DNA of 64,000 nucleotides, taken from positions 39,724-103,723 of the IMG/VR virus record IMGVR_UViG_3300032516_000011; one strand, given 5' to 3'. The DNA is from a virus. The notes beneath the pieces were generated by a model that was not told where the DNA came from, did no database searches, and was given only the letters and a program-made list of their open reading frames with translations. Below are positions 13,908 to 62,543 of this stretch, piece after piece. How positions within the stretch are numbered: position 1 is the stretch's first letter; each line of letters starts with the position of its first letter. A program made the translations under genes and the position numbers.

Positions 13908-13936
13908 TTGATACTTTTATAATAATTTCGTATAAT
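13908..13936 (+). promoter_or_regulatory. Sigma70-like promoter
   Basis: TTGATA at 13908-13913 and a perfect TATAAT at 13931-13936, separated by 17 bp, in a 57-bp gap between genes. It would drive the 13962 to 19315 block and shows use of host-type polymerase. Confidence 0.7.
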
Positions 13937-17022: not shown

Positions 17023-19005
17023 ATGCCAACACTTCCATTTGATGGGACAGCTCTTTCGGCTTCGGACGCAACTATAGCAACATACAGCCGGCTCCAGTAT
17101 CCCAACCCATTCTTTGATTTATCCAGGCATTATTTTCCAAAAACAGTTAAGACACTGTTTAAATATTGCCGTATCTTTTTTTATCAAAATGAATTTATCA
17201 GTAATGTTATCACCAAGTTAGCCGAATACCCTGTCACTGATTTCCTCTACGAAAATATTCAGGACAAAGAAGTTAAGGCTAACTATAAGGAGTTAATAGA
17301 TCACCACCTCAATTTAAAGTCATTCCTTATTGAATGTGGACTGGATTACTTTACTTACGGTAACTGTATCATCTCTGCAAACATGAAGTTCAAACGCTTC
17401 TTGCAGTGTCCTGCGTGTAAAGAAATGTTACCTGCAGAAAATGTAAAATTTAGATGGGTAAATTATGCCTTCATTGGTAAGTGTGAAAAATGTAGCGTCG
17501 AAGGAGTAACCTTCAAGATAGTCGATAAATATTTAAAGAGCCCGCGGTTCTTAAAATTTATACGCTGGGCCCCAGAAAATGTTAATTTAGATTACGATGA
17601 TTTGACTGGCGAAACCGTGTACTATTACACGATGAACGATAAAACAAATAAAGCTATACGAGAAGGCAAGCCCGAAGTTCTGGTACGAGTCCCTAAAATT
17701 TTCATTGATGCTATCAAGAACAATAAAAAAATAGTACTTGACGCACACAACCTATTCCATCTGAAACGTCCTACTCTTGCCGAAGAAGATCAGGGCTGGG
17801 GCAAACCATTACTCCTTCCCACTATGAAAATGCTTTGGTATATGCAGACATTACGCAGAGGAAATGAAGCCATAGTAGCAGACCATCTTATCCCTAACCG
17901 TGCTGTATTCCCTTCGTCTCAGGGCAACCTCGATCCATTTACACAGCTTAATATGGGTCAATGGAGAAGTAACGTCGAAGATCAAATACTCAAGTGGAGA
18001 CGCGATCCTAATGCGATTGGCATATTCCCTATACCTATTGGATATCAATCCCTTGGTGGAGATGCACGCGTACTTATGGTTACTCCCGAGTTAAAGTATC
18101 TTGAAGAGTCAATCATCAACGCGCTCGGTGTTCCGGTTGAATTTATTAAAGGCGGTTCTACATGGACCAGCTCTTCGGTATCTCTACGGATAGTAGAGAA
18201 CCACTTCCTTACATACCGGGAAGAGCTCGACAAATTTATAAACTATTTTATTGTGCCTAAAATCCGGTATTTTTTAGGCTACCCTCCTGTAACAGTTCGT
18301 CTAAAGAAGTTTAAAATGATGGATGATTACCAAACTAAAGAAATTATGTTGCAGATGTCACAGCTTGGGAAGCTATCGGATACTACCTTCTATTCTGAGA
18401 TGGGTATGGATCCACAGGAAGAGATAGAGAATCGGCGTCAGGAAGCAAAGGTACAAACAGATATACAGACGCAATCAATGCTTGCTCAAGCTGATGCTCA
18501 AGGTAAGTCACTGGTTCTGCAGGCACGGTACCAAGCGAAAGCACAGTATGATGCTATCGAAGAGACAGCCCGTATAAAAGAACGTAAGTTTTCTCCTGAG
18601 CTTATAAAAGAATTACAGCTCACAGACATTGATCCCTCGGACTTTCTGGAAAAGCAATCGATTATGATCGAAGGATTGGATCCAGCTAAACAACAACAGT
18701 TACTTGAAATATACCAACAAAAGGCTCCGGTAGCATTTGGTTTTTTAATGAAAAGATTACAAGGACTGTCCGGGCTAACTCCTGAAGCTATGGCGCAGCA
18801 ACAAATGGAAGCAGAGAGTATGAAGCAGCAAGATAAGATGCAAGGTAAACAACACGAACGAGATATGGAAAAAGCAAAGGTTGAAGAGAAGCATTCAAAG
18901 ACCGAGCACGAACGTCATATAGAACGTACATCAGTTGATATGGCAAAGAAAGAACATGCTGCACAAGTAGAAAAAGAAAATCCAAAGGAAGAAAAAAAGA
19001 AATGA
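17023..19005 (+). CDS. Portal protein with zinc-ribbon insertion
   Basis: 660 residues. The plan fits large phage portal proteins: a helical N-terminal wing, a central strand and stem region, a long helical clip/crown region after residue 440 (DDYQTKEIMLQMSQLGKLSDTT), and a Gln/Lys-rich charged C-terminal tail from about 560. The segment LGVPVEFIKGGSTWTSSSVSLR near 370 is like the tunnel-loop region of portals. Two CxxC pairs (CPACKEM at about 128 and CEKC at about 153) form a probable zinc ribbon, which is unusual. The portal is the DNA gate of the capsid. Confidence 0.72.
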   Translation: MPTLPFDGTALSASDATIATYSRLQYPNPFFDLSRHYFPKTVKTLFKYCRIFFYQNEFISNVITKLAEYPVTDFLYENIQDKEVKANYKELIDHHLNLKSFLIECGLDYFTYGNCIISANMKFKRFLQCPACKEMLPAENVKFRWVNYAFIGKCEKCSVEGVTFKIVDKYLKSPRFLKFIRWAPENVNLDYDDLTGETVYYYTMNDKTNKAIREGKPEVLVRVPKIFIDAIKNNKKIVLDAHNLFHLKRPTLAEEDQGWGKPLLLPTMKMLWYMQTLRRGNEAIVADHLIPNRAVFPSSQGNLDPFTQLNMGQWRSNVEDQILKWRRDPNAIGIFPIPIGYQSLGGDARVLMVTPELKYLEESIINALGVPVEFIKGGSTWTSSSVSLRIVENHFLTYREELDKFINYFIVPKIRYFLGYPPVTVRLKKFKMMDDYQTKEIMLQMSQLGKLSDTTFYSEMGMDPQEEIENRRQEAKVQTDIQTQSMLAQADAQGKSLVLQARYQAKAQYDAIEETARIKERKFSPELIKELQLTDIDPSDFLEKQSIMIEGLDPAKQQQLLEIYQQKAPVAFGFLMKRLQGLSGLTPEAMAQQQMEAESMKQQDKMQGKQHERDMEKAKVEEKHSKTEHERHIERTSVDMAKKEHAAQVEKENPKEEKKK

Positions 19006-23320: not shown

Positions 23321-23713
23321 TTACGAAGTATGACAGTACAGTATGTAGAACCTGTTAGCCTCGTCGATCAGTATATTTATAGCTTCGTCTATATCTCGTA
23401 AATCTACGAGTAACCGGGATATCACAACGTTCTCTTTTTGTTTTAATCTGTAATTGAACCCCGGTATTTTTGTCATTGATAGGTGAATGTTGAGCGGCTT
23501 GCTCAACTCTTGTTGCAGTTCCCTTGTAAAAGCATGCCCTTTGTCTAATAATTGGTAAGACCAACTGATTCTCATGGGATGTACTAAACGATCACCAGTA
23601 AATGACCATTTCTTTACATGTGCCAAGGGCATTAGAGCGGAGGCATAGAATCCAATCAAAGGTATATCGAATTCTAATCTTGATAATTTTTGTTGCTGAA
23701 ACAACTCGTCCAT
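23321..23713 (-). CDS. Retron-associated protein, unknown family (130 residues)
   Basis: Starts at the ATG at 23713, which shares its A with the reverse transcriptase stop (TAATG), so translation is coupled. A longer frame from 23785 overlaps the RT gene and is less likely. The protein has mixed helices and strands (DIPLIGFYASALMPL, PLNIHLSMTKIPGFNYRL, ENVVISRLLVDLRDID). No catalytic motif is clear. Retron effectors normally sit directly beside the RT, so this is the main effector or accessory candidate. Confidence 0.65.
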   Translation of the reverse strand: MDELFQQQKLSRLEFDIPLIGFYASALMPLAHVKKWSFTGDRLVHPMRISWSYQLLDKGHAFTRELQQELSKPLNIHLSMTKIPGFNYRLKQKENVVISRLLVDLRDIDEAINILIDEANRFYILYCHTS

Positions 23714-24597
23714 TACACTACATCTATGTTCAAAAGTTGTTGGAGTAATTGGTTGCCCCGAGACGGGTTGAGAGATCGGATCCATTCTATTTGGCCCCTT
23801 AATTGCTGAAAATTTGTGGTGGTTATTGTGATGCCACTGTGTTTCAAATTATGAAGCTGGGCACGTAGATTTCTCCAAACTTCTTTTCTTATACTTGTTT
23901 TTTTATTGACCACAACGCCGGTTATTTGTTGCCTTTGATAATATCTTCTTATTTTTGTCTTTTTTTTATTCGGACGCAATCCATACGCAAAAATGTGTGA
24001 ATATACGGTTGCCTTTAATTTTAATATGTTTGGAGTATCGCCTGAAATTGCAATATCGTCTGCATAGCGCGTAATGGATACGTTGTGCACTGTTGCTAGA
24101 TCTGATAATTTTTTATCCAGTCCTAAGCATACTAAATTTGATATAATTGGAGAGGTAGGCGCACCTTGTGGCAGGGAGCTATCATAGCACATTAAGTTTG
24201 TAATTATGTTAACATCTTCTTCTGTGTATGCAAAAAGTTTTTGTTGCTGGAATAACCAATTAAGAGTACCGTTAACACTAAAATCCATTATAGAGTTAAA
24301 AAAATCTTTTATGTCCAATGTTACGATAAACTTTTTTCCTACGTGCTTTTCAGCGTTTGTTCTTGGGCTCTTGCCGTGTACAAATCCATGCGCGATTGGA
24401 TGCGCTTTAAAGTGGTATAGTATATTATCTACTATTGCACGCTGTATCGATTTTAGTGGTTCTTGTGGAGCATCGATTCTGCGAGTCTTTCCATTCCTTT
24501 TTTTTATTCTGTAGGTGATATAATACCTGGGGATATCTTGTGTAATGATTTCTAAGGTATTCTTATCATATCCTAAAACTGTGTATATATCTTGCAT
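23713..24597 (-). CDS. Retron reverse transcriptase
   Basis: 294 residues, close to the size of retron RTs (about 300). Motifs in order: GKTRRIDAPQ (residues 36-45), HGFVHGKSPRTNAEKH (70-85) containing the retron-type NAxxH, LDIKDFF (94-100), LPQGAPTSP (142-150), the catalytic RYADD (177-181), and ITGVVVNKK (225-233), the place of the retron VTG motif that reads the msr. There is no maturase or HNH extension, so it is not a group II intron RT. The gene starts 10 nt after the a2 repeat of the ncRNA. Confidence 0.88.
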   Translation of the reverse strand: MQDIYTVLGYDKNTLEIITQDIPRYYITYRIKKRNGKTRRIDAPQEPLKSIQRAIVDNILYHFKAHPIAHGFVHGKSPRTNAEKHVGKKFIVTLDIKDFFNSIMDFSVNGTLNWLFQQQKLFAYTEEDVNIITNLMCYDSSLPQGAPTSPIISNLVCLGLDKKLSDLATVHNVSITRYADDIAISGDTPNILKLKATVYSHIFAYGLRPNKKKTKIRRYYQRQQITGVVVNKKTSIRKEVWRNLRAQLHNLKHSGITITTTNFQQLRGQIEWIRSLNPSRGNQLLQQLLNIDVV

Positions 24598-25764: not shown

Positions 25765-27318
25765 TTAAATATCGAGAAATAATTCCAGAGCTATCTCGTC
25801 ATTTTTATCTGATTCTCGAATATTGGAGAGTTTATCTACCCTATCCGAAAATTTTCTTACGGTGGCTATTGAGTTTTCATATGAGTCGATGAGTACCGAG
25901 TAAATGTTTACCTTGTTCTCACTTTTCCATTTTTTATACTCCTTAAGCCAGGGTTCACGTACAGCTGATTCACCATCTGTAACAAAAACAATATCCGCTT
26001 TTTCATACAGTTTTTCAGTACCGATTTTTTCCCGGGCTTTATCTAGCGGAGGTTCAAACTCTGTTCCACCACCTTCAAAATATTCGGCCATATCCAATAG
26101 TTGCTCCACATTGAATGGGTCGGCTTTAGAAAATTCATTGGTATGAAGATTTTGTTGTCTCCAGCCTGAAGAAAAATGAACGCAAAAGAAATCTCGTTTC
26201 TGTTCACGGGCTATCTCAAGAAGAACCAAGGCTACAGCTTTCGACCATATTTCTGGCAGTCCATCCATAGATCCAGAACTGTCAATACAGATTATAACTG
26301 GCCCTTTACCCTTCTTTTGTTTGCCCTGAATTTCATACTGTAACGTTTTACCTTCGAGTAAATCTAATAAGAATTGTTTACGTGTGGCTGGAAGTAATAA
26401 ACGCATAATTTCTGAAGGAATGAGCTGACTAATATCATTTCCTTGCTTTAGACTATATACGCTATCAAGACCATGCTTAACCTTTTCTTTTCGATGCGTT
26501 TGTGCAAGTCTACGATATCGACCTGCTAACTTTGCTATTTGTTTTAACTTTGAACTGTTACGCAAACGATTTAATAATTCCATTTTCTCATGGGGCGATT
26601 TTTTCTGGAATGAATCGCTTCGCTCCAATCCCCAATTTGAAATCATTTCGCTTGTTTCTTTAATTGAATCTTTGACTTTGGCCGCCATACGTTCGATGGC
26701 CTTTTCAAAGTCTTTACGTTCAGTTAACTCTTCAAAGTTATCCATAGCCTCTTCATAACGACGCTCGGCTTCTTCCAGATCAATCTCTTCGTTTTGTTCG
26801 CCTCGAGGCCCACCAAATCCATCTTGACTGTCCCCCTGGGCTTTATCTTGCTGTTGCTGTGCTTGATCTAAAGTGCCTCCTGCCTTAATTAGTTCCTGAA
26901 GAGCTTCTCGCTCTTTCTTCAATTCCTTTACAAGCCGCATAGCTTCGTCGGAAAGAAGTTCGGTTCCAATTGTGGAGTTTACCACATCAAGTTGAGTCAT
27001 CGCACGAAGCTCTTTGTACCGCTGAGATTCAACGAGTTGCTCCATAATCTTTCGATTAAGAAGAAAATCTCGTTTCATTGCCGCCGGTTCATTGAGTTCT
27101 GGTTCATATTTAAATAGAGCATCATACAAATCTTGCTGAAGTTGGGGAAATTGCTCATATTCTTTAGTTCCCTTTTCTTCGGTTTGTAAGAGTTTTGCGC
27201 TATGCTCTTTTAACTCCTGAAAATAACGAATGTCAAAGTTATCATTTTGTATGGAATATGGAGTGTATGCAACTTTGTCGTCTAAGAAGCCACCTTCTTG
27301 TGGAGTTAAGTCTCGCAT
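25765..27318 (-). CDS. VWA-domain protein, ViaA/CoxE-like partner of MoxR
   Basis: 517 residues. The N-terminal two thirds are helical and charged, with a Gln-rich link (about 157-170). The C-terminal third is a von Willebrand A domain with a complete MIDAS metal site: DSSGS (about 344), GGGTEF (about 415) and VTDGES (about 450). This is the plan of ViaA and other CoxE-type partners of MoxR ATPases. It follows the MoxR gene by 2 nt. Such pairs remodel or insert cofactors into protein complexes, but the phage target is unknown. Confidence 0.75.
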   Translation of the reverse strand: MRDLTPQEGGFLDDKVAYTPYSIQNDNFDIRYFQELKEHSAKLLQTEEKGTKEYEQFPQLQQDLYDALFKYEPELNEPAAMKRDFLLNRKIMEQLVESQRYKELRAMTQLDVVNSTIGTELLSDEAMRLVKELKKEREALQELIKAGGTLDQAQQQQDKAQGDSQDGFGGPRGEQNEEIDLEEAERRYEEAMDNFEELTERKDFEKAIERMAAKVKDSIKETSEMISNWGLERSDSFQKKSPHEKMELLNRLRNSSKLKQIAKLAGRYRRLAQTHRKEKVKHGLDSVYSLKQGNDISQLIPSEIMRLLLPATRKQFLLDLLEGKTLQYEIQGKQKKGKGPVIICIDSSGSMDGLPEIWSKAVALVLLEIAREQKRDFFCVHFSSGWRQQNLHTNEFSKADPFNVEQLLDMAEYFEGGGTEFEPPLDKAREKIGTEKLYEKADIVFVTDGESAVREPWLKEYKKWKSENKVNIYSVLIDSYENSIATVRKFSDRVDKLSNIRESDKNDEIALELFLDI

Positions 27319-27320
27319 GA

Positions 27321-28478
27321 TTACACCTTAGCCTGCATTTTTGCAAGATCAACACCTAAAAGATCTCTTGCCATATTCATGTTCATATTCTCTAATTCTG
27401 TCTCCATTTTTTCCACCTCTACAATGTCTTGCTTTTTTCCAGCCATTGTACGCTTAAGTTGGGCAATTTGCATACGAGCATCACGAATTTTTTGTGCCGC
27501 TTCGATAACTGCAGTTTGTCGTTTTGCAGCATCTTTATGTTTATATACCAACTTCACTACATCCTGAACATCGTTGTATAAGGTGTGGATTTTATTTTTT
27601 TCTGGAGAAATCATTTCAAGAATAAGCGAATGTACACTCTTTTCTTGTTCCGGCTTATTCCAGGCAATATGACGATACATTTCAAGTTCGTCAATCTGAA
27701 CAGCGTCTCTTCCATTTAGCCATGCTTCAGCTTGAAGTACCCGTATAGATGTTTTAAAGGTTCTGTCGGATACGGCAGTAATGTCTTTTCTAATTGCCTC
27801 GCGAACTTTTACTATGTGCGCGTATAGATTTTCATCTATTTGAATTTTTTCTATCTCTTCTTGCGCGGCACGAATATCCACCAAACTCACAGTTGCCTTT
27901 GGGGTTTGTTTTGCAAGCTGTAACATTTTAACGAAGCTGGAAGGTTCATGTATAGACTGCAAGTGATACTTTAAAATAAAGCGATCAAAGAAGGCATCCA
28001 GCCCATCATCGGTCTCAGGAATTTCGTTTGATGCGCCGGCAATTGTAACCAGGTCCAAAGGAACGGCTACACCGTCATTAAAGAATACTCGTTCGTTCAA
28101 TACAGTCAATAGCGCATTGAGAATAGAACTATTTGCCTTGAAAATTTCATCCAAGAATGCTGTATTAGCTTCTGGTAATTTGTTTTTTGTAACCCGATAG
28201 TATCGTTCTTCTTCCAATCCTTTTAATGAGATAGGACCAAACAATTCTTCTGGTGTTGAGAATTTCGTTAGCAACCAACCAAAAAATTTGGAGCCCGTAA
28301 TTCTTCGATTCCACTCATTAATGAGTAAAGACTTGGCAATACCTGCAGGACCAAGTAATAGTAAATTTGTTGACGATAATGTAGCCAACATAACCCCACG
28401 AATAGCTGCGGACCTTTCAACCAAAATCTGGTTCATTTCATGCTCTACAGCTAAAAATTTCTCTCTGGTACTGATCAT
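27321..28478 (-). CDS. MoxR/RavA-like AAA+ ATPase
   Basis: 385 residues. Walker A is LLLGPAGIAKS (about 35-45). Walker B is TAFLDEIFKANSSILNALL (about 112-130), followed by sensor 1 (TIAGASNEIPE) and the GLDAFFDRF arginine-finger region, all typical of the MoxR branch and close to RavA. The C-terminal third is coiled-coil helix. It overlaps the gene before it by ATGA and precedes the VWA partner, giving a three-gene operon. Confidence 0.82.
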   Translation of the reverse strand: MISTREKFLAVEHEMNQILVERSAAIRGVMLATLSSTNLLLLGPAGIAKSLLINEWNRRITGSKFFGWLLTKFSTPEELFGPISLKGLEEERYYRVTKNKLPEANTAFLDEIFKANSSILNALLTVLNERVFFNDGVAVPLDLVTIAGASNEIPETDDGLDAFFDRFILKYHLQSIHEPSSFVKMLQLAKQTPKATVSLVDIRAAQEEIEKIQIDENLYAHIVKVREAIRKDITAVSDRTFKTSIRVLQAEAWLNGRDAVQIDELEMYRHIAWNKPEQEKSVHSLILEMISPEKNKIHTLYNDVQDVVKLVYKHKDAAKRQTAVIEAAQKIRDARMQIAQLKRTMAGKKQDIVEVEKMETELENMNMNMARDLLGVDLAKMQAKV

Positions 28479-29365: not shown

Positions 29366-29454
29366 TTACCATAGAATCTTATACCACAAAAGTTATTGAC
29401 TTTTACCTGGTTTTTTAGTATTATATATAAAAAGGCATAAACAATCTATGGTAA
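29366..29454. repeat. Inverted repeat around the RNA polymerase promoter
   Basis: TTACCATAGA (29366-29375) and TCTATGGTAA (29445-29454) are a perfect 10-bp inverted repeat. It is centred on the promoter, and the second arm covers the start codon of the polymerase gene. It is a possible operator pair or looping site. Confidence 0.45.
29396..29424 (+). promoter_or_regulatory. Sigma70-like promoter of the phage RNA polymerase gene
   Basis: TTGACT at 29396-29401, 17-bp spacer, TATTAT at 29419-29424, about 24 bp before the ATG at 29448. The host enzyme can therefore transcribe the phage polymerase gene. Confidence 0.75.
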
Positions 29455-32400
29455 ATAAACTCGATCCAGGCTTACAGTCCAAGAATATTCAACAAGCTAT
29501 AGTTGAAACCATTTCTGCACAATTTCCAATAAAAGGCCACTATCAAACTTTGGAACTTATAAAGCCACTAATTATTTCTGATGAATTAGATGATCAAGAT
29601 TTTCCTGGGCAACGAGAGGCTAAATTAAGCGGACGATCTTGGCAAGTACCTGTTTATGGAACCTTTCGTCTTATAGATAATAAAACTGGAAACATCATTG
29701 ATCAGATTAAGGATATTAAAGTTGCTAATATACCAAAACTTACCGATCGATTTTCCATGCTAATCGATGGCAACGAATACACCACCATGAACCAATTTCG
29801 TTTAAAGCCGGGTATCTATACTCGAAAAAAAGCAAATGATGAAATGGAATCACAATTTAATTTAGCGGTGGGGTATAATTTTAAAATGATGATGGACCCT
29901 GCAGACGGTCTTTTTTATCTGTATATCGGCAATCAAAAATTTCATCTTTATACACTTCTTCATGCTTTTGGTGTCCCAGAAAATGAAATGGCTAAAATGT
30001 GGGGCAATGAAATTTTCAATAGAAATAAGTCCTCTGGTATTAATGAGGAGGGCAAAGAAATTCCATTGATGTGGGAAAAACTAAAAAGACAGAAACTTCC
30101 GTATGAGGAAGCACTGAATGCTTTAAAAGAATATTTTGACAAAACACGTATTAATATTGATACCACCGAACTTACTATTGGTAAGGGAGTAGATAGAGTA
30201 ACTTCAGAGGCACTTCTTTTAACATCCAGCAAACTATTAAAAGTATTACGTGGGGAAGAGCCCGAAGATGAGCGTGATAGTTTAGTATTTAAAAATCTAT
30301 TCACAGTAGATGATTTGGTCAAGCAACATATTGCAAAACGTGCTCCAAACATTCAAAAAAATTTATTGGCTCGTACCGATCACAAACAATCTATAAGAGA
30401 AATTATCTCCCCCGATACCTATACCAAAGATATCAAATCATTTTTTACCCAGGGCGATCTTAGTAATCCTTCTCCTCAAACTAACCCCGTTGAAATGCTG
30501 GGTGAATGGAGAAAAACTACTATTATGGGTACTGGTGGAATCCAAAGCCCACACGCCATAACATTTAAAACACGCGATATCCATCCCACACATTTAGGTT
30601 TTCTTGATCCACTTAATACTCCCGAAAGTGGAAAAGTAGGAGTTACCCTTCCATTAGCTATGCACGTCGAAAAACACGGAGATGAAATTAAAACTCCAAT
30701 AGTTACTCCGACTGGTAAAGATAGCTATGTGACACCTATAGAATTTTACCGTATGAAAATTGGATTTCCAGATCAACATGTAGATGGCAAAGCTAAGGGA
30801 GCCACAGTCAAAGCTATGTATCGTGGGCAATCGGTGGTACTTCCTGCTAAAGATATTGATGGATATATTCAAGATCCTACCAGCATGTTTGCATGGACTA
30901 CCAACCTTGTTCCATTTTTAGGCAACAATTCCGGCAACAGGGCTTTGGTAGCGGCAAAAATGGTTACACAAAGTGTAGCATTAAAATCGCCAGAAACCCC
31001 ATTAGTAAAAGTTGTTGGGCAAACAGGAGAAACTCTTGATTCCATATTAGGAAAATTTTTAAAGCCTAAGGTTCCAGAAGGATTTGGAACCGCCACCGTA
31101 ATGAAAATAGAAGGTGATTATGTACATTTACGCAATGACAAGGGTGAGCAAACTAAGGTTGGTTTATATAAAGATTTTCCATTAAATCAAGAATCCTTTA
31201 TTAATTCCAAGCTATTGGTAGATATTGGACAAAAAGTAAAAGAAGGTGAACCCTTAGCAGATACTAATTTTTCTGATGCCAGCGGTAATTTTGCACCTGG
31301 AATAAACGTTAATGTTGCGTATATGCCGTGGCATGGATACAATTACGAAGATGGTATAGTTGTAACGGATGCTCTGGCGAAAAAATTCACGTCGACCGTG
31401 TTGTTAAAGAAAAGTTTGCAGGTTAGTAAAGATAGCATTTTAGATGCAAAAAAGTTTGTTTCATACTACCCCAAAGCATTGACCATACAAAATATTGAAA
31501 AATTAAATGATCTGGGTGTTATTAAGGAAGGTATACACGTAGAGCCCGGAGAAACTTTAATTGCACATTTAAGTAAAATGGATCTTACAGATACTGAGAA
31601 GATTCTAAAGAATATGAATAAAGCTATGTCTAATCCCTATAGAAATCAATCCTTAACTTGGGATGGGGATAATCCTGGAGTTGTTACGCACGTTAGAAAA
31701 GTTGGAAACACTTATCAAATCCATATAAAGGAAGAACAGCCGCTAAAGGTTGGAGATAAATTGGCAGCGCGTTATGGAGACAAGGGTATAATTACAAAAA
31801 TTATTGCCGATAATGAGGCTCCACATACCAAAGACGGTACACGTATCGATATGATGGTAAATATTCATGGTGTTGTAGGACGTATGAATATGGGGCAATT
31901 ACTAGAAGCCGCAGCGGGACGTATAGCACAAAAAACCGGTAAACCCTTTTTAGTAAAGAATTTTTCTGACCATGATTATCTTGGCGAAATTATGAGTGAG
32001 ATGAAAAGTCTAAAAATTGCGCCTAACGAAATATTATTGGACGGTAAAGATGGAAAGCCATTCCAAAAACCTATATTCTGGGGTAACAAGCATTATTTAA
32101 AACTAATGCATGTGGTCGAACATAAATACAATTCGCGCGGATTACCGGGATCCTATGATGCAAATGAACAGCCTATACATGGATCATCAGGAGGACAGTC
32201 GGTTGATCCTCTTCAAATGTATTCTTATTTAGCGCATGGAGCAAGACAAAATTTATATGAATTTACTGCGGTGAAAGGTCAGAAGAATGACGAGTATTGG
32301 CGTGCGCTACAGCTCGGTCTTCCACCTCCTCCACCCCAACGTAATTTTGTATTTGATAAATTCACAAATTATATAAAAGCCGCGGGAGTCAACATTGAAA

Positions 32401-35400
32401 AAAATGGAAATAAATTTAAACTATTTCCAGCGACTTCCGATGATATGCGTAAATGGTCCGCAGGAGAATTGACGGATCCTGGGCATATGTTACGTGGTAA
32501 AGATCTTAGTGAAATTAAGGGTGGATTGTATGATCCAAAATTAACGGGTGGTTTACGTGGTACCAATTGGACGCACTTTACTTTAGAAGAGCCTATCCCT
32601 AATCCATTGTATGAAGGAGCTATAAAATCTATATTGAATCTTAATACGCCACAATTCGATCATATTATAGATGAGGTGGATAAAGAATCTAAAATCAAAG
32701 GTAATCAACGACTTGCTAAAATGTTATCGGATATTGATGTGGATGAAGAGCTGGCAAAAGCTAAAGACTCGCTAAAAACTGCTGGTCCAACACAGGTTAA
32801 TGGAATCAATAAAAGAATTCGTTATCTAAGTATTTTAAAAGAAAAAAACTTGCGTCCAGAAAAAGCGTATATGATGGAAATTATTCCGGTCCTTCCTCCT
32901 ATATATAGGCCTGTATATCCTTTGCCTTCTGGCGATACACAAAACTCTCCAATTAATTATCATTATAGAGATGTGGCGATTTTAAATAAAGCTATTAAAG
33001 ATATAAAAGGTCAAGGACATTTGTTCGATGAGTTTGAACAAAATAAAAAGAATAGGGCTGATTTATACAAGGCTACAAAAGCTCTGATGGGATTAGCTGA
33101 ACCTATAACATTCACTACACGAAAATATGAGGGTTTATTAGGTACTCTTGCCGGCGATTCACCAAAACAGGGTTTCATACAAAATAAAGCTTGGTCGAAA
33201 CGACAAGATTTATCCGCTCGATCTACTATTACTGTTGAACCTTCTTTGGGCATTGATCAGGTCGGGTTGCCCGATATAATGTTAAAGGATTTATTTAAAC
33301 CTTTCATAATGAGAGAACTCGTTCGGCAGGGATATAAACCAACAGAAGCTTTAGAACAAATCAAAACTTGGACGCCTGTAGCAGAACAAGCATTGAATAA
33401 TAGTATTAAGCAAAGGCCCGTACTATTGAATAGAGCTCCGTCATTACATAAACACTCGGTACAAGCATTTTGGCCACAAAGATACGATGGGCACAGTATT
33501 CGAGTAAGCCCCTTATCGGCCAAAGGATTCAACTTTGATTTTGATGGAGATACAATGTCGGTTCATGTACCAGTATCAGAAAAAGCAGTGGAAGAAGCTA
33601 AGGGTATGTTACCAACTAAAAATTTATATAAGGCTGGGGATAGATCACAAATGATTAATATAGAACAAGATTATCAGCTTGGGCTATATTATTTATCCAA
33701 AATAACCGGCGATAGTGGTAAACACTTCTCTTCAATAAATAAGGCCACTAAAGAAATAAAAGATCGAACTACTAGCTTTACATTAGATGGTAAAACAATG
33801 ACCTTGGGGCAATGGGCAATAAATGAGCCCCTTCCTTCGGAACTCCGAGATTATACTAGAACCATGGATTCAAAAATAGTAAAAGAATTAATTGAAATAT
33901 TATTTCAAAAGTATCCAGGATACTTAGGAACTGTGATAGATGCTTGGAAAGAATTAGGCCGTGTATATGCGGTAGAACGTGGAAGTACTATATCTATAAC
34001 AGATATGGTCATAGATAGAAAATATCGTGATATTATTCTAAAGAAAGCTGAGAATAAGATAAAGCCCGGCATGGATAAATACGAGATCGCCAATATATAT
34101 GAAGACGCAAAAAAAGAAATGGAAGATGCTCAGGACCATAATCTTAAAGGAAAAAATAATTTCTATGATATGTTACAAGCAGGAAGTACATCAAAGAAAG
34201 GACAAGTAACACAAATCCTATCAATGCCCGGCATTGTTCAAGATGTACATGGAATTCCCATTCCGCATCCGATAAAGAAATCATATTCAGAAGGCCTAGA
34301 CACCTTTGATTATTGGAATCAATCATATGGTGCTCGTAAGGGTGTGGTAGATAGATCTGTTAATACACAGGATTCGGGGGCACTGAATAAAGAATTATTA
34401 TTTACTACTAAAAGTTTGCTTATTACGGAAGAAGATTGTGGTACCCCAGATGGTATAATTATGTCTACAAATTCAAAGGAAGTGATGGATCGGTTCTTAT
34501 CACAAGACGTTCCAGGAGTAGGCCATCGCAATGATCTTATAACTAATGAACGTGTGTTGAAGGCTAAAGTAAAGAAAATTGAAAGTTTACCTGTACGTTC
34601 TTCTCTAACATGTGAAGCGGATAATGGAGTATGTCAAAAATGCTACGGCCTTATGGCAAATGGACAATTGGCACGTATAGGAGAAAATGTAGGTGTTATC
34701 GATTCAGAAGCCCTTACCGAACGGTCCACACAGTTGACAATGCAAACATTCCATACTGGAGGCGCCGGTAAAGGTTCTTCAGTTACTTTAGGGTTTCCGC
34801 GATTAGAGGAATTGTTATATGTACCACAAAAAATTCGAGATGCAGGAGTTTTATCAAAAGAGGTAGGAATCGTAACTAATATTTCAGATAACCCTGCTGG
34901 CGGTAAAAATCTGTATATAGGACAAAATAATTACTATATCCCGCGTGAGCGTACATTATTAGTTTCAGTCGGATCCAAAGTTAATCGTGGAGATAGATTG
35001 ACAGATGGTTCTATAAAACCTCAGGAACTATCTGAATTAAAGGGACATTTAGCAGCACAAGAATATGTTGCTGATGAGATTAATAATATCTATGAAAATA
35101 AATTTGCTAGAAAAACATTTGAAACAGTATTACGTGGAGTTGCAAATAATGCAGAAATTACAAATGTTCCAGACGAGGTGGAAGACCAAGTTCATTTTAT
35201 GCGTGGAGATACTGTACCAATTACGCGCGTTAAAAGGCTTAACAGAGAATTCCAAGCAGAGGGGAAACCTTCAATTGAATATAAGCCTTTTTTCAAGTCA
35301 TTGTCAGTACTGCCGTTACATAATGAAGATTGGCTTAGTCGTTTAAGCACTAATCGATTACGACAAACTATACAAGAAGCTTCGGCAATGGGCATGGAAA

Positions 35401-35492
35401 GTGATACAAAAGGAACGGATCCAATGTCCTCCTATCTTTATGGCTTGGACTTTGGTCAAGAAACAGACCCAAAGAAAAAGAAATTCTATTAA
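29448..35492 (+). CDS. Single-chain RNA polymerase, fused beta and beta-prime subunits
   Basis: 2014 residues. Residues 1 to about 950 are beta-like: MPWHGYNYEDG (626 on), GDKLAARYGDKG with the two active-site lysines K771 and K779, and GVVGRMNMGQLLE. A PPPPP linker near 960 follows. Beta-prime then starts at MRKWSAGEL. It includes LPVLPPIYRP-like IPVLPPIYRP, LLNRAPSLHKHS, the catalytic NFDFDGD (1362-1368, Mg ligands D1364, D1366, D1368), zinc ligands C1664, C1722, C1729, C1732, and the trigger-loop region TQLTMQTFHTGG. The first beta-prime zinc finger is missing. No alpha, omega or sigma gene is seen nearby. It transcribes phage genes in the host cell. Confidence 0.92.
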   Translation: MVNKLDPGLQSKNIQQAIVETISAQFPIKGHYQTLELIKPLIISDELDDQDFPGQREAKLSGRSWQVPVYGTFRLIDNKTGNIIDQIKDIKVANIPKLTDRFSMLIDGNEYTTMNQFRLKPGIYTRKKANDEMESQFNLAVGYNFKMMMDPADGLFYLYIGNQKFHLYTLLHAFGVPENEMAKMWGNEIFNRNKSSGINEEGKEIPLMWEKLKRQKLPYEEALNALKEYFDKTRINIDTTELTIGKGVDRVTSEALLLTSSKLLKVLRGEEPEDERDSLVFKNLFTVDDLVKQHIAKRAPNIQKNLLARTDHKQSIREIISPDTYTKDIKSFFTQGDLSNPSPQTNPVEMLGEWRKTTIMGTGGIQSPHAITFKTRDIHPTHLGFLDPLNTPESGKVGVTLPLAMHVEKHGDEIKTPIVTPTGKDSYVTPIEFYRMKIGFPDQHVDGKAKGATVKAMYRGQSVVLPAKDIDGYIQDPTSMFAWTTNLVPFLGNNSGNRALVAAKMVTQSVALKSPETPLVKVVGQTGETLDSILGKFLKPKVPEGFGTATVMKIEGDYVHLRNDKGEQTKVGLYKDFPLNQESFINSKLLVDIGQKVKEGEPLADTNFSDASGNFAPGINVNVAYMPWHGYNYEDGIVVTDALAKKFTSTVLLKKSLQVSKDSILDAKKFVSYYPKALTIQNIEKLNDLGVIKEGIHVEPGETLIAHLSKMDLTDTEKILKNMNKAMSNPYRNQSLTWDGDNPGVVTHVRKVGNTYQIHIKEEQPLKVGDKLAARYGDKGIITKIIADNEAPHTKDGTRIDMMVNIHGVVGRMNMGQLLEAAAGRIAQKTGKPFLVKNFSDHDYLGEIMSEMKSLKIAPNEILLDGKDGKPFQKPIFWGNKHYLKLMHVVEHKYNSRGLPGSYDANEQPIHGSSGGQSVDPLQMYSYLAHGARQNLYEFTAVKGQKNDEYWRALQLGLPPPPPQRNFVFDKFTNYIKAAGVNIEKNGNKFKLFPATSDDMRKWSAGELTDPGHMLRGKDLSEIKGGLYDPKLTGGLRGTNWTHFTLEEPIPNPLYEGAIKSILNLNTPQFDHIIDEVDKESKIKGNQRLAKMLSDIDVDEELAKAKDSLKTAGPTQVNGINKRIRYLSILKEKNLRPEKAYMMEIIPVLPPIYRPVYPLPSGDTQNSPINYHYRDVAILNKAIKDIKGQGHLFDEFEQNKKNRADLYKATKALMGLAEPITFTTRKYEGLLGTLAGDSPKQGFIQNKAWSKRQDLSARSTITVEPSLGIDQVGLPDIMLKDLFKPFIMRELVRQGYKPTEALEQIKTWTPVAEQALNNSIKQRPVLLNRAPSLHKHSVQAFWPQRYDGHSIRVSPLSAKGFNFDFDGDTMSVHVPVSEKAVEEAKGMLPTKNLYKAGDRSQMINIEQDYQLGLYYLSKITGDSGKHFSSINKATKEIKDRTTSFTLDGKTMTLGQWAINEPLPSELRDYTRTMDSKIVKELIEILFQKYPGYLGTVIDAWKELGRVYAVERGSTISITDMVIDRKYRDIILKKAENKIKPGMDKYEIANIYEDAKKEMEDAQDHNLKGKNNFYDMLQAGSTSKKGQVTQILSMPGIVQDVHGIPIPHPIKKSYSEGLDTFDYWNQSYGARKGVVDRSVNTQDSGALNKELLFTTKSLLITEEDCGTPDGIIMSTNSKEVMDRFLSQDVPGVGHRNDLITNERVLKAKVKKIESLPVRSSLTCEADNGVCQKCYGLMANGQLARIGENVGVIDSEALTERSTQLTMQTFHTGGAGKGSSVTLGFPRLEELLYVPQKIRDAGVLSKEVGIVTNISDNPAGGKNLYIGQNNYYIPRERTLLVSVGSKVNRGDRLTDGSIKPQELSELKGHLAAQEYVADEINNIYENKFARKTFETVLRGVANNAEITNVPDEVEDQVHFMRGDTVPITRVKRLNREFQAEGKPSIEYKPFFKSLSVLPLHNEDWLSRLSTNRLRQTIQEASAMGMESDTKGTDPMSSYLYGLDFGQETDPKKKKFY

Positions 35493-36915: not shown

Positions 36916-39084
36916 TTATTTCGTTACTACTTCAACCTTGTTCTCATTCACACATACTTCAAAATTCTTTGCTTCTGGGATATCCAAAAGAAGATCTGAC
37001 ATACGTGTTTCTACCTCTTTTTCAAGAAGTCGGCGCATTGGTCGAGCACCATACTCCTGAGAATAGCCCTTCTCAAGGAACCAATCTTCGGCTTCTGGTG
37101 TAAAGGTTACCGTGAATCTTTCGTTGATATCATTAACCATAAGACGCATAATTTTTCGCATATCGTCTTTAGTTAATTTATTAAATGTAACGATTTCATC
37201 CAGACGGTTAAGAAATTCTGGTTTGAAAAAACTCTTCAGTGCGGCTTTGAGATTCTTTTTCATATCTTGATCCGCAGTAGTGTCTTCAAATCCAAGTGTT
37301 CTTTTACCGACTGTTTCGACACCGATGTTTGATGTAATAATGATAATGGTATTACGAAAACTAACCGTACGTCCTTGTGCGTCCGTTAATACCCCATCAT
37401 CAAAGATTTGCAAAAGTACATTGAATACATCTGGATGTGCCTTCTCAATCTCATCAAATAGAACCACTGAATAAGGTTTTTTACGTACTTTTTCAGTTAA
37501 TTTACCACCACTGTCCTCGTATCCTACATATCCAGGAGGTGATCCAATAAGCGAGGATATTGTGAACTTATCAAAAAATTCACTCATATCCAATCGTATC
37601 ATGGATTGCTCGGAATCAAATAGATACTTAGCCAATTGTCTGGCTGTTTCGGTCTTCCCGACGCCAGTAGGACCGATAAATAAAAATGTACTCGGACGTT
37701 TATCACTTTTAACACCCGTTCGTTTTCTCTTAATTGATGTAGCTATGGCTGTAATGGCTTCCGACTGCCCAACAACATTGGTTTCAAGGTCCTGTGCAAT
37801 GTGTTTGAGCTTATCCCGTTCCGATTGATTGAGATTGGTAATTGGAACGCCCGTGGTTTTGGATACGACTTTCCTAATGATGCCGTCATCCACGGATGTA
37901 GCACCGGATAACTTTGCCACCGCGGCAGCCTCATCAAGAACATCGATCGCCTTATCCGGGAGAAAGCGGTCTTGAATATATCGTTCAGTAAGTTCGATGA
38001 TAATAGGTATTGCAACATTTGGTATCTTTACTCCATGATAAAGTTCATAGACATATTTAATTTGATGCAGAATTTGTGTAGTTTCTTCAAGTGTAGGTTG
38101 CTCGACCATTAACTTCTGAAATCTACGTTCTAATGCCCCATCTTTTTCAATATGTTTTCGAAATTCATTGGCCGTCGTTGCTCCAATACATCGAATATAT
38201 CCACGTGACAATGCTGGTTTTATGATGTTTGCAGCGTCACCCGTTCCCTCAGATCCGCCCGTTCCCATAAGTGAATGCATCTCATCGATGAAAATAATTA
38301 TATCGGGATTCTTCTGTAACTCTTTAATAATCATTTGCATTCTTTGTTCAAATTGCCCGCGATATTGCGTGCCGGCAATAATTGAATTAAGATCAAGAGA
38401 AAGTATTCGCTTATTTACTAATGAGCGTGGCACATTGCCTGAAGCAATACGCATCGCAAGCCCTTCAACAATGGCAGTTTTTCCTACTCCTGACTCACCG
38501 ATCAACGCTGGATTATTCTTTTTCCGGCGTGCTAGGATTTCAATTAGTCGCGTAATTTCGGAATCACGTCCAATGACGGGATCTAACTTATTCTCCTGAG
38601 CAAGAATCGTCAGATCCATCGAAAAAGCATTCAGTGCAGGAGTATTTGAAGAGCCTGTACGATCACTAAACACTTTTTTCTTTGCCTCTCCTGGCTCTGT
38701 ATACCCAGTTTCAGTTAGCATTTTTGATGCTACACTGTCGTGTGTACGATAAAGGGCATGTACCAAAGTTTCAGCAGAAATTGTTCCGTTCAAAGATACA
38801 AACTTTGCAAAATTTAAAACGTAGTGCATTGCATGAGATATCTTTGGAATAGGATTGGTTAATGCCACATCTCGTTGTGTAATACGGAATCTGTCAGACA
38901 GTAGCGTGCGTAATTTTCCAATGTTTGTACCATTTTTATTTAATAACATTACGCCGTCATTATTTTCATGCTCGACGATAGCATATAATAGTATTTCGGT
39001 TGAAATATTATCTTGATTTAATTCTGTAGCTTTTTTTCGAGCAGTTGTAAATATCTCTTCAACTTGCTGAGAATACTGACTCAT
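36916..39084 (-). CDS. ClpC/ClpA-like AAA+ unfoldase
   Basis: 722 residues. A Clp N-domain (1-145), first AAA domain with GESGVGKT and FIDEMHSL, and second with GPTGVGKT and LFDEIEKAHPDVF. There is no ClpB-type long middle coiled coil, only a short link, so it is ClpA/ClpC class. The loop TLGF in VGKRTLGFEDTT sits where ClpC and ClpA carry their ClpP-docking (I/L)GF tripeptide. It should unfold substrates for ClpP, and a ClpP gene is in this window at 63334. A ribosome binding site (AAGGAG) precedes the ATG. Confidence 0.87.
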   Translation of the reverse strand: MSQYSQQVEEIFTTARKKATELNQDNISTEILLYAIVEHENNDGVMLLNKNGTNIGKLRTLLSDRFRITQRDVALTNPIPKISHAMHYVLNFAKFVSLNGTISAETLVHALYRTHDSVASKMLTETGYTEPGEAKKKVFSDRTGSSNTPALNAFSMDLTILAQENKLDPVIGRDSEITRLIEILARRKKNNPALIGESGVGKTAIVEGLAMRIASGNVPRSLVNKRILSLDLNSIIAGTQYRGQFEQRMQMIIKELQKNPDIIIFIDEMHSLMGTGGSEGTGDAANIIKPALSRGYIRCIGATTANEFRKHIEKDGALERRFQKLMVEQPTLEETTQILHQIKYVYELYHGVKIPNVAIPIIIELTERYIQDRFLPDKAIDVLDEAAAVAKLSGATSVDDGIIRKVVSKTTGVPITNLNQSERDKLKHIAQDLETNVVGQSEAITAIATSIKRKRTGVKSDKRPSTFLFIGPTGVGKTETARQLAKYLFDSEQSMIRLDMSEFFDKFTISSLIGSPPGYVGYEDSGGKLTEKVRKKPYSVVLFDEIEKAHPDVFNVLLQIFDDGVLTDAQGRTVSFRNTIIIITSNIGVETVGKRTLGFEDTTADQDMKKNLKAALKSFFKPEFLNRLDEIVTFNKLTKDDMRKIMRLMVNDINERFTVTFTPEAEDWFLEKGYSQEYGARPMRRLLEKEVETRMSDLLLDIPEAKNFEVCVNENKVEVVTK

Positions 39085-39324
39085 AGTACTCCTTTTATTT
39101 TATTATGATTATATACTTGGAAAGGAATTCTTAGTTAGGACTAAAGCTTCCTCACTTCAACCCCATTGCTCAGGTCTGGCCGATTAGGTCCATTTATTAT
39201 ATAAATAATTCCCTGTCAAAAGTCGTAACGACTTTATATAGCACTATGACCTTAGGTGCTGTATTTGTGCCCAAGATCCATAGTTAGCACCCACCTTTAG
39301 TAGTAATCCAAGAATTCCCTATTA
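39085..39324 (-). other. 240-bp intergenic region
   Basis: No gene seen. A short hairpin AAAGTCG/CGACTTT lies near 39218-39235. TTGACA and TATAAT are both present on the minus strand but only 12 bp apart, so no good promoter can be called. It is the likely leader for the ClpC-like gene. Confidence 0.35.
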
Positions 39325-39609
39325 TTAATTTGATATGTTTGCGTCGTCGAATGTCTCTCCAGGAGCAATTCCTTGCATTTCAGGAGAATTTTCAGCCGCC
39401 TTCATTTCCGCTGCGATAAATTCATTTAAAGACTGTCCAATTTTTCCTTCCGGATCTTTACTGATAATAAGTGTACAAATATCATCAACAAGTTCTGGAG
39501 GAATCAATGGTGGGCATAAAATGACTGGGGTAGCTTCCATGGCCTGTCCCTGATCGCCCCAAGCAACCATTCGTATATCGCCATCGGTTATAACAAAATA
39601 TTGGTCCAT
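39325..39609 (-). CDS. Small acidic hypothetical protein
   Basis: 94 residues, acidic, between the Pnkp-like gene and the ClpC-like gene. The helical middle (LVDDICTLIISKDPEGKIGQSLNEFIAAEMK) may be a dimer surface. The acidic end suggests disorder. It is not recognised. Confidence 0.5.
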   Translation of the reverse strand: MDQYFVITDGDIRMVAWGDQGQAMEATPVILCPPLIPPELVDDICTLIISKDPEGKIGQSLNEFIAAEMKAAENSPEMQGIAPGETFDDANISN

Positions 39610-39625
39610 AAAAATATGGGCACCT

Positions 39626-41800
39626 TTAAGTGCCCTTCTCCTTATAATACATGTTTCTCAATGTGATGATATCTCTGGCTAATTCTTCTTCGGTTCTAGT
39701 TTTTAACCAGGCATAAAAATAATTAGCTTCAGGAGTAATTAATCCTGAGAGATTCACCTGTCGTCTTGCTCTTAACGCGTCTTTGACCACCCGCATGTGT
39801 TTCCAGAAATTATAATAAGGAAGCTTTAGCTTCATCATAAAACCTTTGGAATCTTCGAATACCATACCCTCAACGGCTGTAGTTTTTATCTTTTGGGCTA
39901 CATTGTAGTATCTGAAAAGCTGTTCGCGATTTTCTATTTGACATCGCAATCGTTTCCATGAAAGATTATGGCGCTGTGCAAATGTTGCGGTCTCTTCGTA
40001 TGGAAGCTTCTCATAATCCAATGTTCTTCGTACGAGATCTAAAAGAATTATGGCATATTTCATTGGATATTCGATTATATGTGGGTCGGTTTCCTGATTG
40101 ATAACTTCGAATACGAGCGAAATATTCTTTTCTTTTAGTTCCTGTTTAATAGCTTCCAAACCCACATTTGGTTTGGCTAGTGCCCAAGTTCGTTTAAACA
40201 TATCCGGGTAAATACCTTCGATTGAACTTTTTGAGGTAAAGAGTAGTTGGTCGGATGCTGTATCATAACCAATCATTCCAAGGAACCCATTATACTTGTC
40301 GAATACATTGACTGGATATTCTAATTTCACTGTTCCAATCTTTGTATCTTCCTGTTCGTTTACGTTGAAGAACTTGTTGTATGATCGAGCTACAATCTCG
40401 TTAGTCTTTGTGTTGATGAAAAGACCCCGAGCTTTCACTGTCATACCGTCCCAAACCTTTTTGTAGAAGGCATTCCTCGTGAAATTGAAGGAGGAGATAT
40501 CACCATAAGGACGTTCTGTTATGTATCGATTACTTCTTAACTGTTGAACGAATGAGTCGGATCCAAGGGTTGTTTCCACTTTTATATTCTTAGGACGAAA
40601 TACCGTATTCTTCACTTCTTGTACTACTATTTCATCTGTCAATAAAGTAAGTGTCACAACTCGAAGATTTTCACCAAACTCTATATCACCTTGAAGATTA
40701 TAGTATTTGGGATTTATCATTGTTGGAGATTTGGTTACGTTGCGATGTCCAGCTATTTGAATTGCATTTGTAGGTGAATTTTGCATCCATGATTCAGCAA
40801 CCTCAAGCATGTCTTCGTATTTTCCTACGCCTTTGATAAATTGTTCAGTAGCGATAGTTATGAGGCCTAAATCATCTGGAAGTTTGGAGATGCCGGCATG
40901 ATTAACTAATAGTAATCTGCTACCGTAATAGAAATAGGCTATCTGTGCAAATTTTCTACACAGTTGTCTAATTTCGCCTTTATCTAGATTACTGGCATCC
41001 AGTTCTTTCATTGTTTGGAAGAGAAACTCGTTTGAACGAATACTCACTATCTCTCCATGAGCCCAATGCTTCAGCCAGCGTTCGTGATTACCTTCGAGAA
41101 GAAGAATATTTGGTTTGGTATAGTTTTCCACTAACCAACGAACAACTTCGGTATTCTGGATACCGCGATCAATATAATCTCCAATAAAGATATAGTAGTG
41201 ATCCTCACAATAACCATTTTGCTCAAACCATTGTTTGAGTGGTTCATAGCATCCGTGAATATCGCCTATTACATGGATGGCTTTATAGTGACTAAGATCC
41301 AGAGGAGTATAATCAAATACGGTATTATATTCATGTGGCTTTACCACTTGAACATATCCGGGTACTGGCTGACTTTTAATACGCGCATCTAAGTTATCTA
41401 ATACATGCTCCGGCACCCATTTGTATTCCGCACGTGCTTTGTTTTGTATTTTACAAGTCTCTAATGGTACGTCCGAAAAATCTATACAGAAAATTCGATA
41501 CCGATATTCGCCTGCGAGGTTTTTATATTTGGCAAAATCACTTCCTTTGGAATGAGTAGCATCTATAAATACCAATTCTCCGCGCCCCATTCGTGTTTCA
41601 AGCATTTCAAATAGAAGTTGCCAAACCTTACGATCGTTTTCAGGACTGATGGCTAAAACTCCTTTTGTAGTTAATATTGGAGATTGTAGTTGGAGTCGAA
41701 TGTCATCTGCACATAATGTATAGGGGGTTAAGCCCTCTGTGGCAAGCCAATGTGACTTTCCACAGCCAACATTGCCGCGGAGCAAGTATAGATGTCTCAT
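39626..41800 (-). CDS. Pnkp-like RNA repair enzyme: kinase, phosphatase and ligase
   Basis: 724 residues in the three-domain order of bacterial Pnkp. Kinase: P-loop GNVGCGKS (9-16) and CADDIR. Phosphatase (about 180-380): GDIHG, GDYIDRG and GNHERW metal-binding motifs of the calcineurin-like family. Ligase (about 410-724): the nucleotidyl lysine K502 in FDKYNGFLG, with downstream strand motifs. Together they would heal and seal broken RNA ends. Bacterial Pnkp works with the Hen1 methyltransferase; none is seen here. It shares one base with the IF3 stop (TAATG). Confidence 0.83.
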   Translation of the reverse strand: MRHLYLLRGNVGCGKSHWLATEGLTPYTLCADDIRLQLQSPILTTKGVLAISPENDRKVWQLLFEMLETRMGRGELVFIDATHSKGSDFAKYKNLAGEYRYRIFCIDFSDVPLETCKIQNKARAEYKWVPEHVLDNLDARIKSQPVPGYVQVVKPHEYNTVFDYTPLDLSHYKAIHVIGDIHGCYEPLKQWFEQNGYCEDHYYIFIGDYIDRGIQNTEVVRWLVENYTKPNILLLEGNHERWLKHWAHGEIVSIRSNEFLFQTMKELDASNLDKGEIRQLCRKFAQIAYFYYGSRLLLVNHAGISKLPDDLGLITIATEQFIKGVGKYEDMLEVAESWMQNSPTNAIQIAGHRNVTKSPTMINPKYYNLQGDIEFGENLRVVTLTLLTDEIVVQEVKNTVFRPKNIKVETTLGSDSFVQQLRSNRYITERPYGDISSFNFTRNAFYKKVWDGMTVKARGLFINTKTNEIVARSYNKFFNVNEQEDTKIGTVKLEYPVNVFDKYNGFLGMIGYDTASDQLLFTSKSSIEGIYPDMFKRTWALAKPNVGLEAIKQELKEKNISLVFEVINQETDPHIIEYPMKYAIILLDLVRRTLDYEKLPYEETATFAQRHNLSWKRLRCQIENREQLFRYYNVAQKIKTTAVEGMVFEDSKGFMMKLKLPYYNFWKHMRVVKDALRARRQVNLSGLITPEANYFYAWLKTRTEEELARDIITLRNMYYKEKGT

Positions 41801-43649: not shown

Positions 43650-43725
43650 TGGCTGGGAAGGAAGGATTTGAACCTTCAACGCCAGCCTCCAAAGGGCTGT
43701 GATCTACCAATTGATCTACTTCCCA
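43650..43725 (-). tRNA. tRNA-Gln(UUG)
   Basis: Full cloverleaf: acceptor TGGGAAG/CTTCCCA, D-arm GATC/GATC, anticodon stem CAGCC/GGCTG with loop CTTTGGA (anticodon TTG), T-arm GAAGG-TTCAAAT-CCTTC, then GCCA. The CCA end is encoded, unlike most tRNAs here. The U1-A72 pair fits tRNA-Gln. Confidence 0.88.
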
Positions 43726-43735
43726 AAAAATATCA

Positions 43736-43753
43736 GGGGCCCTTTTGGACCCC
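43736..43753 (-). terminator. Likely terminator or processing hairpin before tRNA-Gln
   Basis: Minus strand: stem GGGGTCC/GGGCCCC with loop AAAA, then TGATATTTTTT. It lies between the permuted tRNA-like region and tRNA-Gln. Confidence 0.55.
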
Positions 43754-43855
43754 CGATTCTTGAAGAGTGGCCAGCCTATCCGTGCCGACCACCCAAACGA
43801 TTTCAATACGTTTTTGTATTGTTTTGCCTGTTCACCTAATGCTGTGAAAGAATAC

Positions 43856-44057
43856 AACAGATATTACAATATCAAGTTAACCATTTGCTCTGCCTCTGAG
43901 CTACCGAGCCATATCGACGTATTAAGCAGCGGTGTGCACCCGCATGCTGGAAACGTCGGCAAACCTTCTGCTTGTCACGTGCATCAAGCGCACGTAAGGT
44001 TGCATAGAGACTCGGGCGGGACTCGAACCCGCGACCTTCTGGAAAATACCATCTGTT
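43856..44057 (-). ncRNA. tRNA-like RNA in permuted order (3' half before 5' half)
   Basis: On the minus strand a T-arm (GCGGG-TTCGAGT-CCCGC, 44032-44016) is followed by CCGAGTC (44015-44009) and T. About 98 nt later come GGCTCGG (43910-43904), TA and a perfect D-arm GCTC/GAGC (43901-43887). GGCTCGG pairs fully with CCGAGTC (six Watson-Crick pairs, one G-U), making a 7-bp acceptor. Outer arms AACAGAT (44057-44051) and ATCTGTT (43862-43856) can pair too. The layout matches a permuted tRNA or the tRNA part of a two-piece tmRNA, but the anticodon stem is weak and no tag peptide is clear. Confidence 0.5.
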
Positions 44058-45069: not shown

Positions 45070-45081
45070 TGGTTCTATTCC

Positions 45082-46427: not shown

Positions 46428-46446
46428 GTCTATGGCACTATTTTTG

Positions 46447-46986: not shown

Positions 46987-47010
46987 TTTTTTTCTTGCAC
47001 CTTAAATTTG

Positions 47011-47391: not shown

Positions 47392-47403
47392 CCCACTCCT
47401 ACT

Positions 47404-49044: not shown

Positions 49045-49057
49045 TCGACACTACTTT

Positions 49058-56287: not shown

Positions 56288-56347
56288 GTGTTTCCTTAAG
56301 ATGTTAATATAGGTTAATTATGTTATCTTATACCAGTAAAAAATGTG

Positions 56348-57757: not shown

Positions 57758-57795
57758 AACATTACATTATACAACTTTTTTTGATTAATGTCAAG

Positions 57796-62495: not shown

Positions 62496-62543
62496 AAAAA
62501 CATCCTTTCCTTTTATCTTATATTCTTATACCATTAAAACAAA

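Follow-up and report, generated by a model that had tools for sequence, protein, structure and literature searches.

A 64,000-nucleotide stretch of viral DNA (the window; positions 39724-103723 of the 103,723-base IMG/VR record IMGVR_UViG_3300032516_000011, a metagenomic assembly) encodes both catalytic subunits of a cellular-type RNA polymerase (RNAP), beta and beta', in a single chain. The enzyme belongs to a widespread lineage found on hundreds of IMG/VR contigs, the longest of about 165-205 kb; the window's record has no end repeats and, given the size of these relatives, is probably a fragment. We lean slightly towards the view that this lineage carries a self-contained transcription system, in which a one-chain core without alpha would work with a lineage-specific, injected sigma factor and a private early promoter, GGTATAAG, dating from the lineage ancestor, beside sigma70-type promoters on the structural strand.

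The open reading frame (ORF) at 29448-35492 runs uninterrupted from ATG to stop and specifies 2014 residues. Along it, Pfam places Rpb2 domains 3 and 6, followed by Rpb1 domains 1, 2, 4 and 5, and its top sequence matches in the Protein Data Bank (PDB) are bacterial beta' chains (E 7e-106). The beta lysines K771 and K779 and the beta' aspartates D1364, D1366 and D1368 of the NFDFDGD loop are invariant among 41 relatives. This combination of ordered beta and beta' domains, catalytic Asp triad and beta lysines is that of a double-psi-barrel core of the cellular type. Aligned to E. coli RpoC, the beta' part lacks the first ~20 residues and the N-terminal zinc-binding domain; the second zinc site is kept (C1664, C1722, C1729 and C1732). 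Residues 580-1770 were modelled with AlphaFold (mean pLDDT 86); the model contains a flap-tip helix at 715-723 and both clamp helices (1168-1188 and 1195-1214), and a Foldseek search with it returned bacterial RNAP chains as the best PDB matches. Judged by these residues and domains, the fused chain is very probably an active core. An earlier note on this DNA had read beta and beta' from one 2014-residue ORF and proposed a structure prediction as a check; the ordered domains, the intact active-site residues and the resemblance of the model to bacterial RNAP chains all bear that reading out.

The same note had taken a PPPPP stretch for the linker between the subunits, and here it was mistaken. 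Alignment with E. coli RpoB and RpoC shows the end of beta (NFVFDKFTNYIKAAGVNIE) passing directly into beta' (NKFKLFPATSDDMRKWSAGE) at residues ~986-988, about 20 residues past PPPPP, and in the AlphaFold model the joint is formed by strands 981-986 and 989-994. PPPPP itself (residues 959-963) lies inside beta, aligning to E. coli beta ~1313-1321 within the beta C-terminus, and the proline-rich stretch is also found in relatives with a split beta'.

A first scan of IMG/VR returned 23 loci and an alignment-based scan at least 527. Among 103 viral loci that were read, 75 contain the same one-ORF fusion, with 1865-2642 codons from stop to stop; several of the longest are lengthened by intein-like inserts. 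Another 17 encode a chain consisting of beta and the N-terminal part of beta' (beta-beta'N), often with a separate C-terminal part (beta'C) at the same locus, and some of the remainder are cut by contig ends. One of the 75, locus L004, is 85% identical to the window chain. Although the window comes from a metagenomic assembly, sequencing or assembly error has a negligible chance of explaining the fusion: many metagenomes give the same uninterrupted chain, and the length from residue 957 to 1010 is 54 residues in 69 of 81 relatives. Two further loci (L052:10001-16045 and L067:10001-16045) give a single chain when TGA is translated as Trp; each has five in-frame TGA codons, three of which fall at conserved tryptophans, present in the window protein. 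Their phage (G020, 205 kb) probably uses TGA for Trp. Locus L098:10001-16219 would encode a one-chain RNAP but for a single in-frame TGA near residue 690, which may be a sequencing error or a true split. Intein-like insertions occur at active sites, within the beta GDKL motif in L005 and in or after the beta' DFDGD loop in L007 and L120/L121.

Named phages with the re-split chain are Salmonella phage Arash and Vibrio phages D69, D148 and D181. Their proteins (in Arash, Gp206 and Gp216) are homologous to almost all of the window chain (~30% identity) and have the same beta-beta' joint. They differ in that a break in beta', past the active site, leaves a beta-beta'N chain of ~1525 residues and a separate beta'C of ~606, annotated simply as beta and beta' or as hypothetical. 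In a FastTree phylogeny, all fused-type sequences, the window chain included, form one clade on a long stem (SH-like support 0.90), apart from bacteria, RHph_Y65 (beta' only) and Carin-5; the comparison with bacterial RpoB/RpoC had been called for in the earlier note. The shared joint and this monophyly place the window chain with the Arash-type enzymes. The re-split sequences constitute one subclade (1.00), nested among one-chain phages on weak nodes (0.26-0.45), a position that suggests fission after fusion, with the deep nodes weak.

No alpha gene was found: two Pfam alpha families, which detected the controls, matched nothing in sets of 11 and 27 records (0/27). The earlier note had missed alpha rightly and a sigma partner wrongly, since the window edge leaves two sigma-family genes of the same 103.7-kb contig outside. 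One is a classical sigma of 255 residues with regions 2 (Sigma70 region 2 match at contig 7824-8033), 3 and 4 and the motif TRERVRQI. The other, g053, stands among structural genes on the RNAP strand, 1249 bases left of the window edge and in the same structural module as the portal protein, and is the counterpart of Arash Gp10. It scores 31.7 bits for Sigma70_r3 against a cut-off of 25.3, with region 4 weak; Pfam did not detect region 2 in g053, and this region is weak in Arash gp10. A model of g053, built without the Arash and D69 sigma rows (pLDDT 87), has sigma chains of many holoenzymes as its best PDB fold matches, at low overall TM-scores that we put down to domain arrangement. The region 3 score and the fold search together assign g053 to the sigma-70 family. 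By a family profile, g053 relatives occur in 28 of 32 fused-RNAP phage records (a 29th match, in G038, is a classical sigma and is not counted); the five other large phages searched (RHph_Y65, Carin-5, IME392, T4 and phiKZ) have none. This co-occurrence and the family assignment make it likely that the g053 family supplies the sigma of the fused core. Window gene 14362-15099 was considered as a virion sigma and rejected, its product being a coiled coil with a hydrophobic segment near the C-terminus. In Cobetia phage Carin-5 (locus L170), an annotated sigma factor lies directly upstream of separate-subunit RNAP genes, a candidate phage sigma-core pair.

Two DNA signals divide between the strands; for these searches, gene calling simply took the longest ORF. 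On the strand opposite to the RNAP gene, GGTATAAG is the most enriched octamer before genes in the pooled loci (22 copies against 0.48 expected), where none was found in sense upstream of RNAP-strand genes. Across five whole or nearly whole contigs, the intergenic share of its copies is 20/29 in G021, 13/21 in G020, 6/13 in G032, 4/8 in G000 and 14/27 in Arash. Of these 57 intergenic copies, 56 run opposite to the RNAP strand (binomial test against the proportion of upstream gaps on the opposite strand, 3e-10), and permutations of the octamer gave a mean of 0.2-0.5 intergenic copies (maximum 2 to 10). The element is oriented strictly toward the downstream gene, usually 5-95 bases from the start codon, and has no visible -35 box and a further conserved TG about 5 bases downstream. 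No intergenic copy was found in the controls (50 kb each of T4, phiKZ, RHph_Y65 and Carin-5, and three RNAP loci), nor within the 47 kb of D69 that were read. The search was exploratory, the octamer having been picked after Arash and G000, so that a fairer test comes from G020, G021, G032 and the pooled loci; a k-mer search of the window's contig alone returned mainly tRNA T-loops, and GGTATAAG emerged with Arash and the pooled relatives. A de novo motif from G025 was discarded as a promoter signal, consisting mainly of ribosome-binding sites.

The RNAP strand bears a sigma70-type signal, TTGAYW-N17-TATAAT. Allowing up to two mismatches and spacers of 16-18, the window's record has 8 intergenic sites where 0.8 would be expected (200 shuffles gave at most 5), and the spacer is 17 in all 11 listed sites; one lies directly upstream of the RNAP gene and another directly upstream of g053. 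Upstream of RNAP-strand genes there are 7 such sites in G021, 5 in G020 and 4 in G000, against 0.33, 0.23 and 0.18 expected, and upstream of opposite-strand genes 1, 0 and 2; the same search found none in Arash or G032.

We moderately favour a reading in which the chain is a catalytically competent, alpha-free core that is packaged, injected and used with the g053 sigma at GGTATAAG early promoters. The covalent fusion would stand in for alpha-directed assembly of beta and beta'. The core would enter the cell together with a g053-type sigma, which would direct it to the short GGTATAAG promoters of the non-structural (early) strand, which lack a -35 box. Sigma70-type promoters would serve the RNAP gene and the rest of the structural strand, with either the host holoenzyme or the core carrying the classical phage sigma as their reader. 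Packaging, argued by analogy with Arash, is fairly probable: proteomics of purified virions of that phage counted 3516 spectra for Gp206, the most of all proteins and above the capsid protein, 1210 for Gp216 and 467 for the sigma Gp10 (PMC10585845). Crass-like phages offer a precedent for the division of labour, their virion RNAP transcribing early and middle genes and cellular RNAP the late ones (PMC10136315).

Several observations pull the other way. The label 'early' for the opposite strand comes from gene content rather than timing. In G025, a large contig with the sigma, none of four GGTATAAG copies is intergenic, and most 26-kb loci are without an intergenic copy, though they have few opposite-strand gaps. 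The sole RNAP-strand copy among the 57 is in Arash, just before gp9-gp10, which could mean autoregulation. By eye, g053 retains few of the aromatic residues with which sigma70 melts the -10 box. The Arash authors themselves allow carry-over for the virion enzymes (PMC10585845).

If carry-over explains the Arash particles, the fused RNAP could be a non-virion enzyme that the infected cell makes for late genes, with host RNAP reading the early ones. The position of its gene, downstream of a sigma70-type promoter on the structural strand, would fit; however, a packaged enzyme's gene also needs late expression, so gene position does not discriminate, and the rank of Gp206 above the capsid protein, with Gp10 present too, speaks against mere carry-over. 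We regard this account as unlikely. To a similar degree we doubt that GGTATAAG serves host RNAP as a variant of the extended -10 box, or serves a host core carrying a phage sigma, while the fused core uses another factor, as the AR9 non-virion RNAP does with gp226. The element does resemble an extended -10 box without -35, and phage sigmas that redirect host core are common, T4 gp55 for example. Against this, the octamer has G at the last -10 position, where sigma70 prefers T; it is kept although the polymerases are only ~31-45% identical and GC content is 39% in the window's phage and 53% in Arash, a difference that makes different hosts probable; and it tracks the fused-RNAP lineage and is absent from the control phages. 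Still less probable is that GGTATAAG is an operator, processing or replication signal. The evidence for a promoter is position and conservation, and the element often lies divergent to the RNAP gene, a place open to a repressor; but strict orientation, the usual spacing to start codons and the downstream TG fit a promoter, and strand specificity would be unexpected of an operator. That GGTATAAG is the promoter of the fused core is, in our judgement, moderately probable.

Fusions of RpoB and RpoC are also known from Helicobacter and Wolbachia; these one-chain enzymes are bacterial, work with alpha and have an essentially complete beta', a description that sets them apart from the window chain, which lacks the beta' N-terminus and zinc domain. 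Among phages, three kinds of enzyme are already known: crAss-like fused RNAPs, separate cellular-like subunits (the multimeric RNAP-encoding Caudovirales, mReC; RHph_Y65 of Kleczkowskaviridae) and split ones (phiKZ, AR9). The Crassvirales virion RNAP is likewise one beta-beta' chain, packaged and used for early transcription (PMC10136315), but it is too divergent for cellular RNAP profiles (PMC7481178), whereas the window chain has strong Pfam Rpb1/Rpb2 and bacterial PDB matches and is accompanied by sigma factors; the proposed division of labour resembles that of crAss-like phages without making the window's phage one of them. The mReC phages, too, have a beta and beta' of their own that are cellular-like and form a deep, separate branch; all capsid proteins found in them are PF07068 (Gp23), and their description mentions fusion for crAssphage only and neither fusion nor sigma in mReC (PMC7481178). 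PF07068 was detected in 3/3 separate-subunit phages tested (RHph_Y65, Carin-5 and IME392) and in 0/12 fused-RNAP records, the window's contig being partial, which separates the fused lineage from mReC as described. For the mReC motif NADxDGD, the window has NFDFDGD, which the published filter would reject; NADFDGD occurs in 70/81 relatives. The phiKZ/AR9-type jumbo-phage enzymes are also phage-encoded and alpha-less (PMC7598289) but consist of several polypeptides, AR9 with a non-sigma promoter factor, and no sigma was found in group 1 jumbo phages (PMC7824862), against one chain and two sigma genes here. The contrast with split phiKZ-type enzymes drawn in the earlier note therefore stands, with the addition that Arash-like relatives carry the fused chain re-cut inside beta'. 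Arash and D69 share with the window's phage a gp10-type sigma and no alpha found, and Arash also GGTATAAG; neither 'fused' nor 'promoter' occurs in a word search of the Arash paper (PMC10585845). Our search of the open-access literature found no description of the one-chain lineage with its sigma and promoter signal, and in a search for the octamer the ten matches listed, out of 413, were off topic by title.

Table 1. Features of the fused RNAP locus and its contig (window positions unless marked contig).
Feature	Position	Strand	Basis
Single-chain RNA polymerase core, beta-beta' fusion, 2014 aa	29448..35492	+	ORF, Pfam, motifs, model
Beta part, residues 1-986	29448..32405	+	alignment to E. coli RpoB
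Beta flap-tip helix, residues 715-723, predicted (moderate confidence); usual sigma region 4 docking site	31590..31616	+	model, alignment
Beta catalytic-lysine motif GDKLAARYGDKGI (K771, K779)	31752..31790	+	alignments
PPPPP, residues 959-963, inside beta	32322..32336	+	alignment
Fusion joint: predicted beta hairpin, residues 981-994, in place of beta C-terminus / beta' N-terminus	32388..32429	+	model, alignment
Beta' part, residues 987-2014	32406..35489	+	alignment to E. coli RpoC
Beta' clamp helices, residues 1168-1214, predicted pair; usual sigma region 2 docking site	32949..33089	+	model, alignment
Beta' active-site loop NFDFDGD	33531..33551	+	sequence, alignments
Classical sigma, 255 aa	contig 7338-8105	-	Pfam regions 2, 3, 4
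Divergent sigma g053, 237 aa	contig 37762-38475	+	Sigma70_r3, family profile, fold match
Portal protein, end of structural module, RNAP strand; also matches Arash gp204	17023..19005	+	
GGTATAAG element, divergent from RNAP gene	29378..29385	-	octamer search
GGTATAAG element, 40 b upstream of minus-strand gene	56327..56334	-	octamer search
GGTATAAG element, 30 b upstream of minus-strand gene	62525..62532	-	octamer search
Sigma70-type site TTGATA-N17-TATAAT, before plus-strand gene of structural module	13908..13936	+	motif search
Sigma70-type site TTGACT-N17-TATTAT, just before RNAP start codon	29396..29424	+	motif search
Sigma70-type site TTGACA-N17-TATAAT, minus-strand exception	57766..57794	-	motif search

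The neighbourhood of the RNAP gene holds further features. A minus-strand cluster diverging from it contains a MoxR-type AAA ATPase beside a von Willebrand factor A protein (25765-28478), and downstream of it, also on the minus strand, come a ClpA/B-like ATPase and a large protein that matches RNA ligase, phosphatase and kinase (36916-41800). A minus-strand reverse transcriptase (PF00078, phrog_2825) at 23713-24597 possibly belongs to a diversity-generating retroelement; no template/variable repeat pair of such an element was found in the window. The window also has 14 tRNA genes (43650-57957), and ARAGORN identified a phage-encoded tmRNA with a 29-residue tag to the left of the window on the contig (L027:14266-14651).

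The placement of the re-split phages in one clade with their one-chain relatives suggests that fused and split phage polymerases interconvert. If the favoured reading is true, the lineage would represent a minimal form of cellular RNA polymerase, with one gene for both catalytic subunits, no alpha and a dedicated sigma, and would be a convenient system for studying the role of alpha and sigma-core co-evolution. With a cultured relative, Arash, which grows on a laboratory Salmonella strain, and a specific predicted promoter sequence at hand, the question of how such an enzyme finds its promoters is directly testable.

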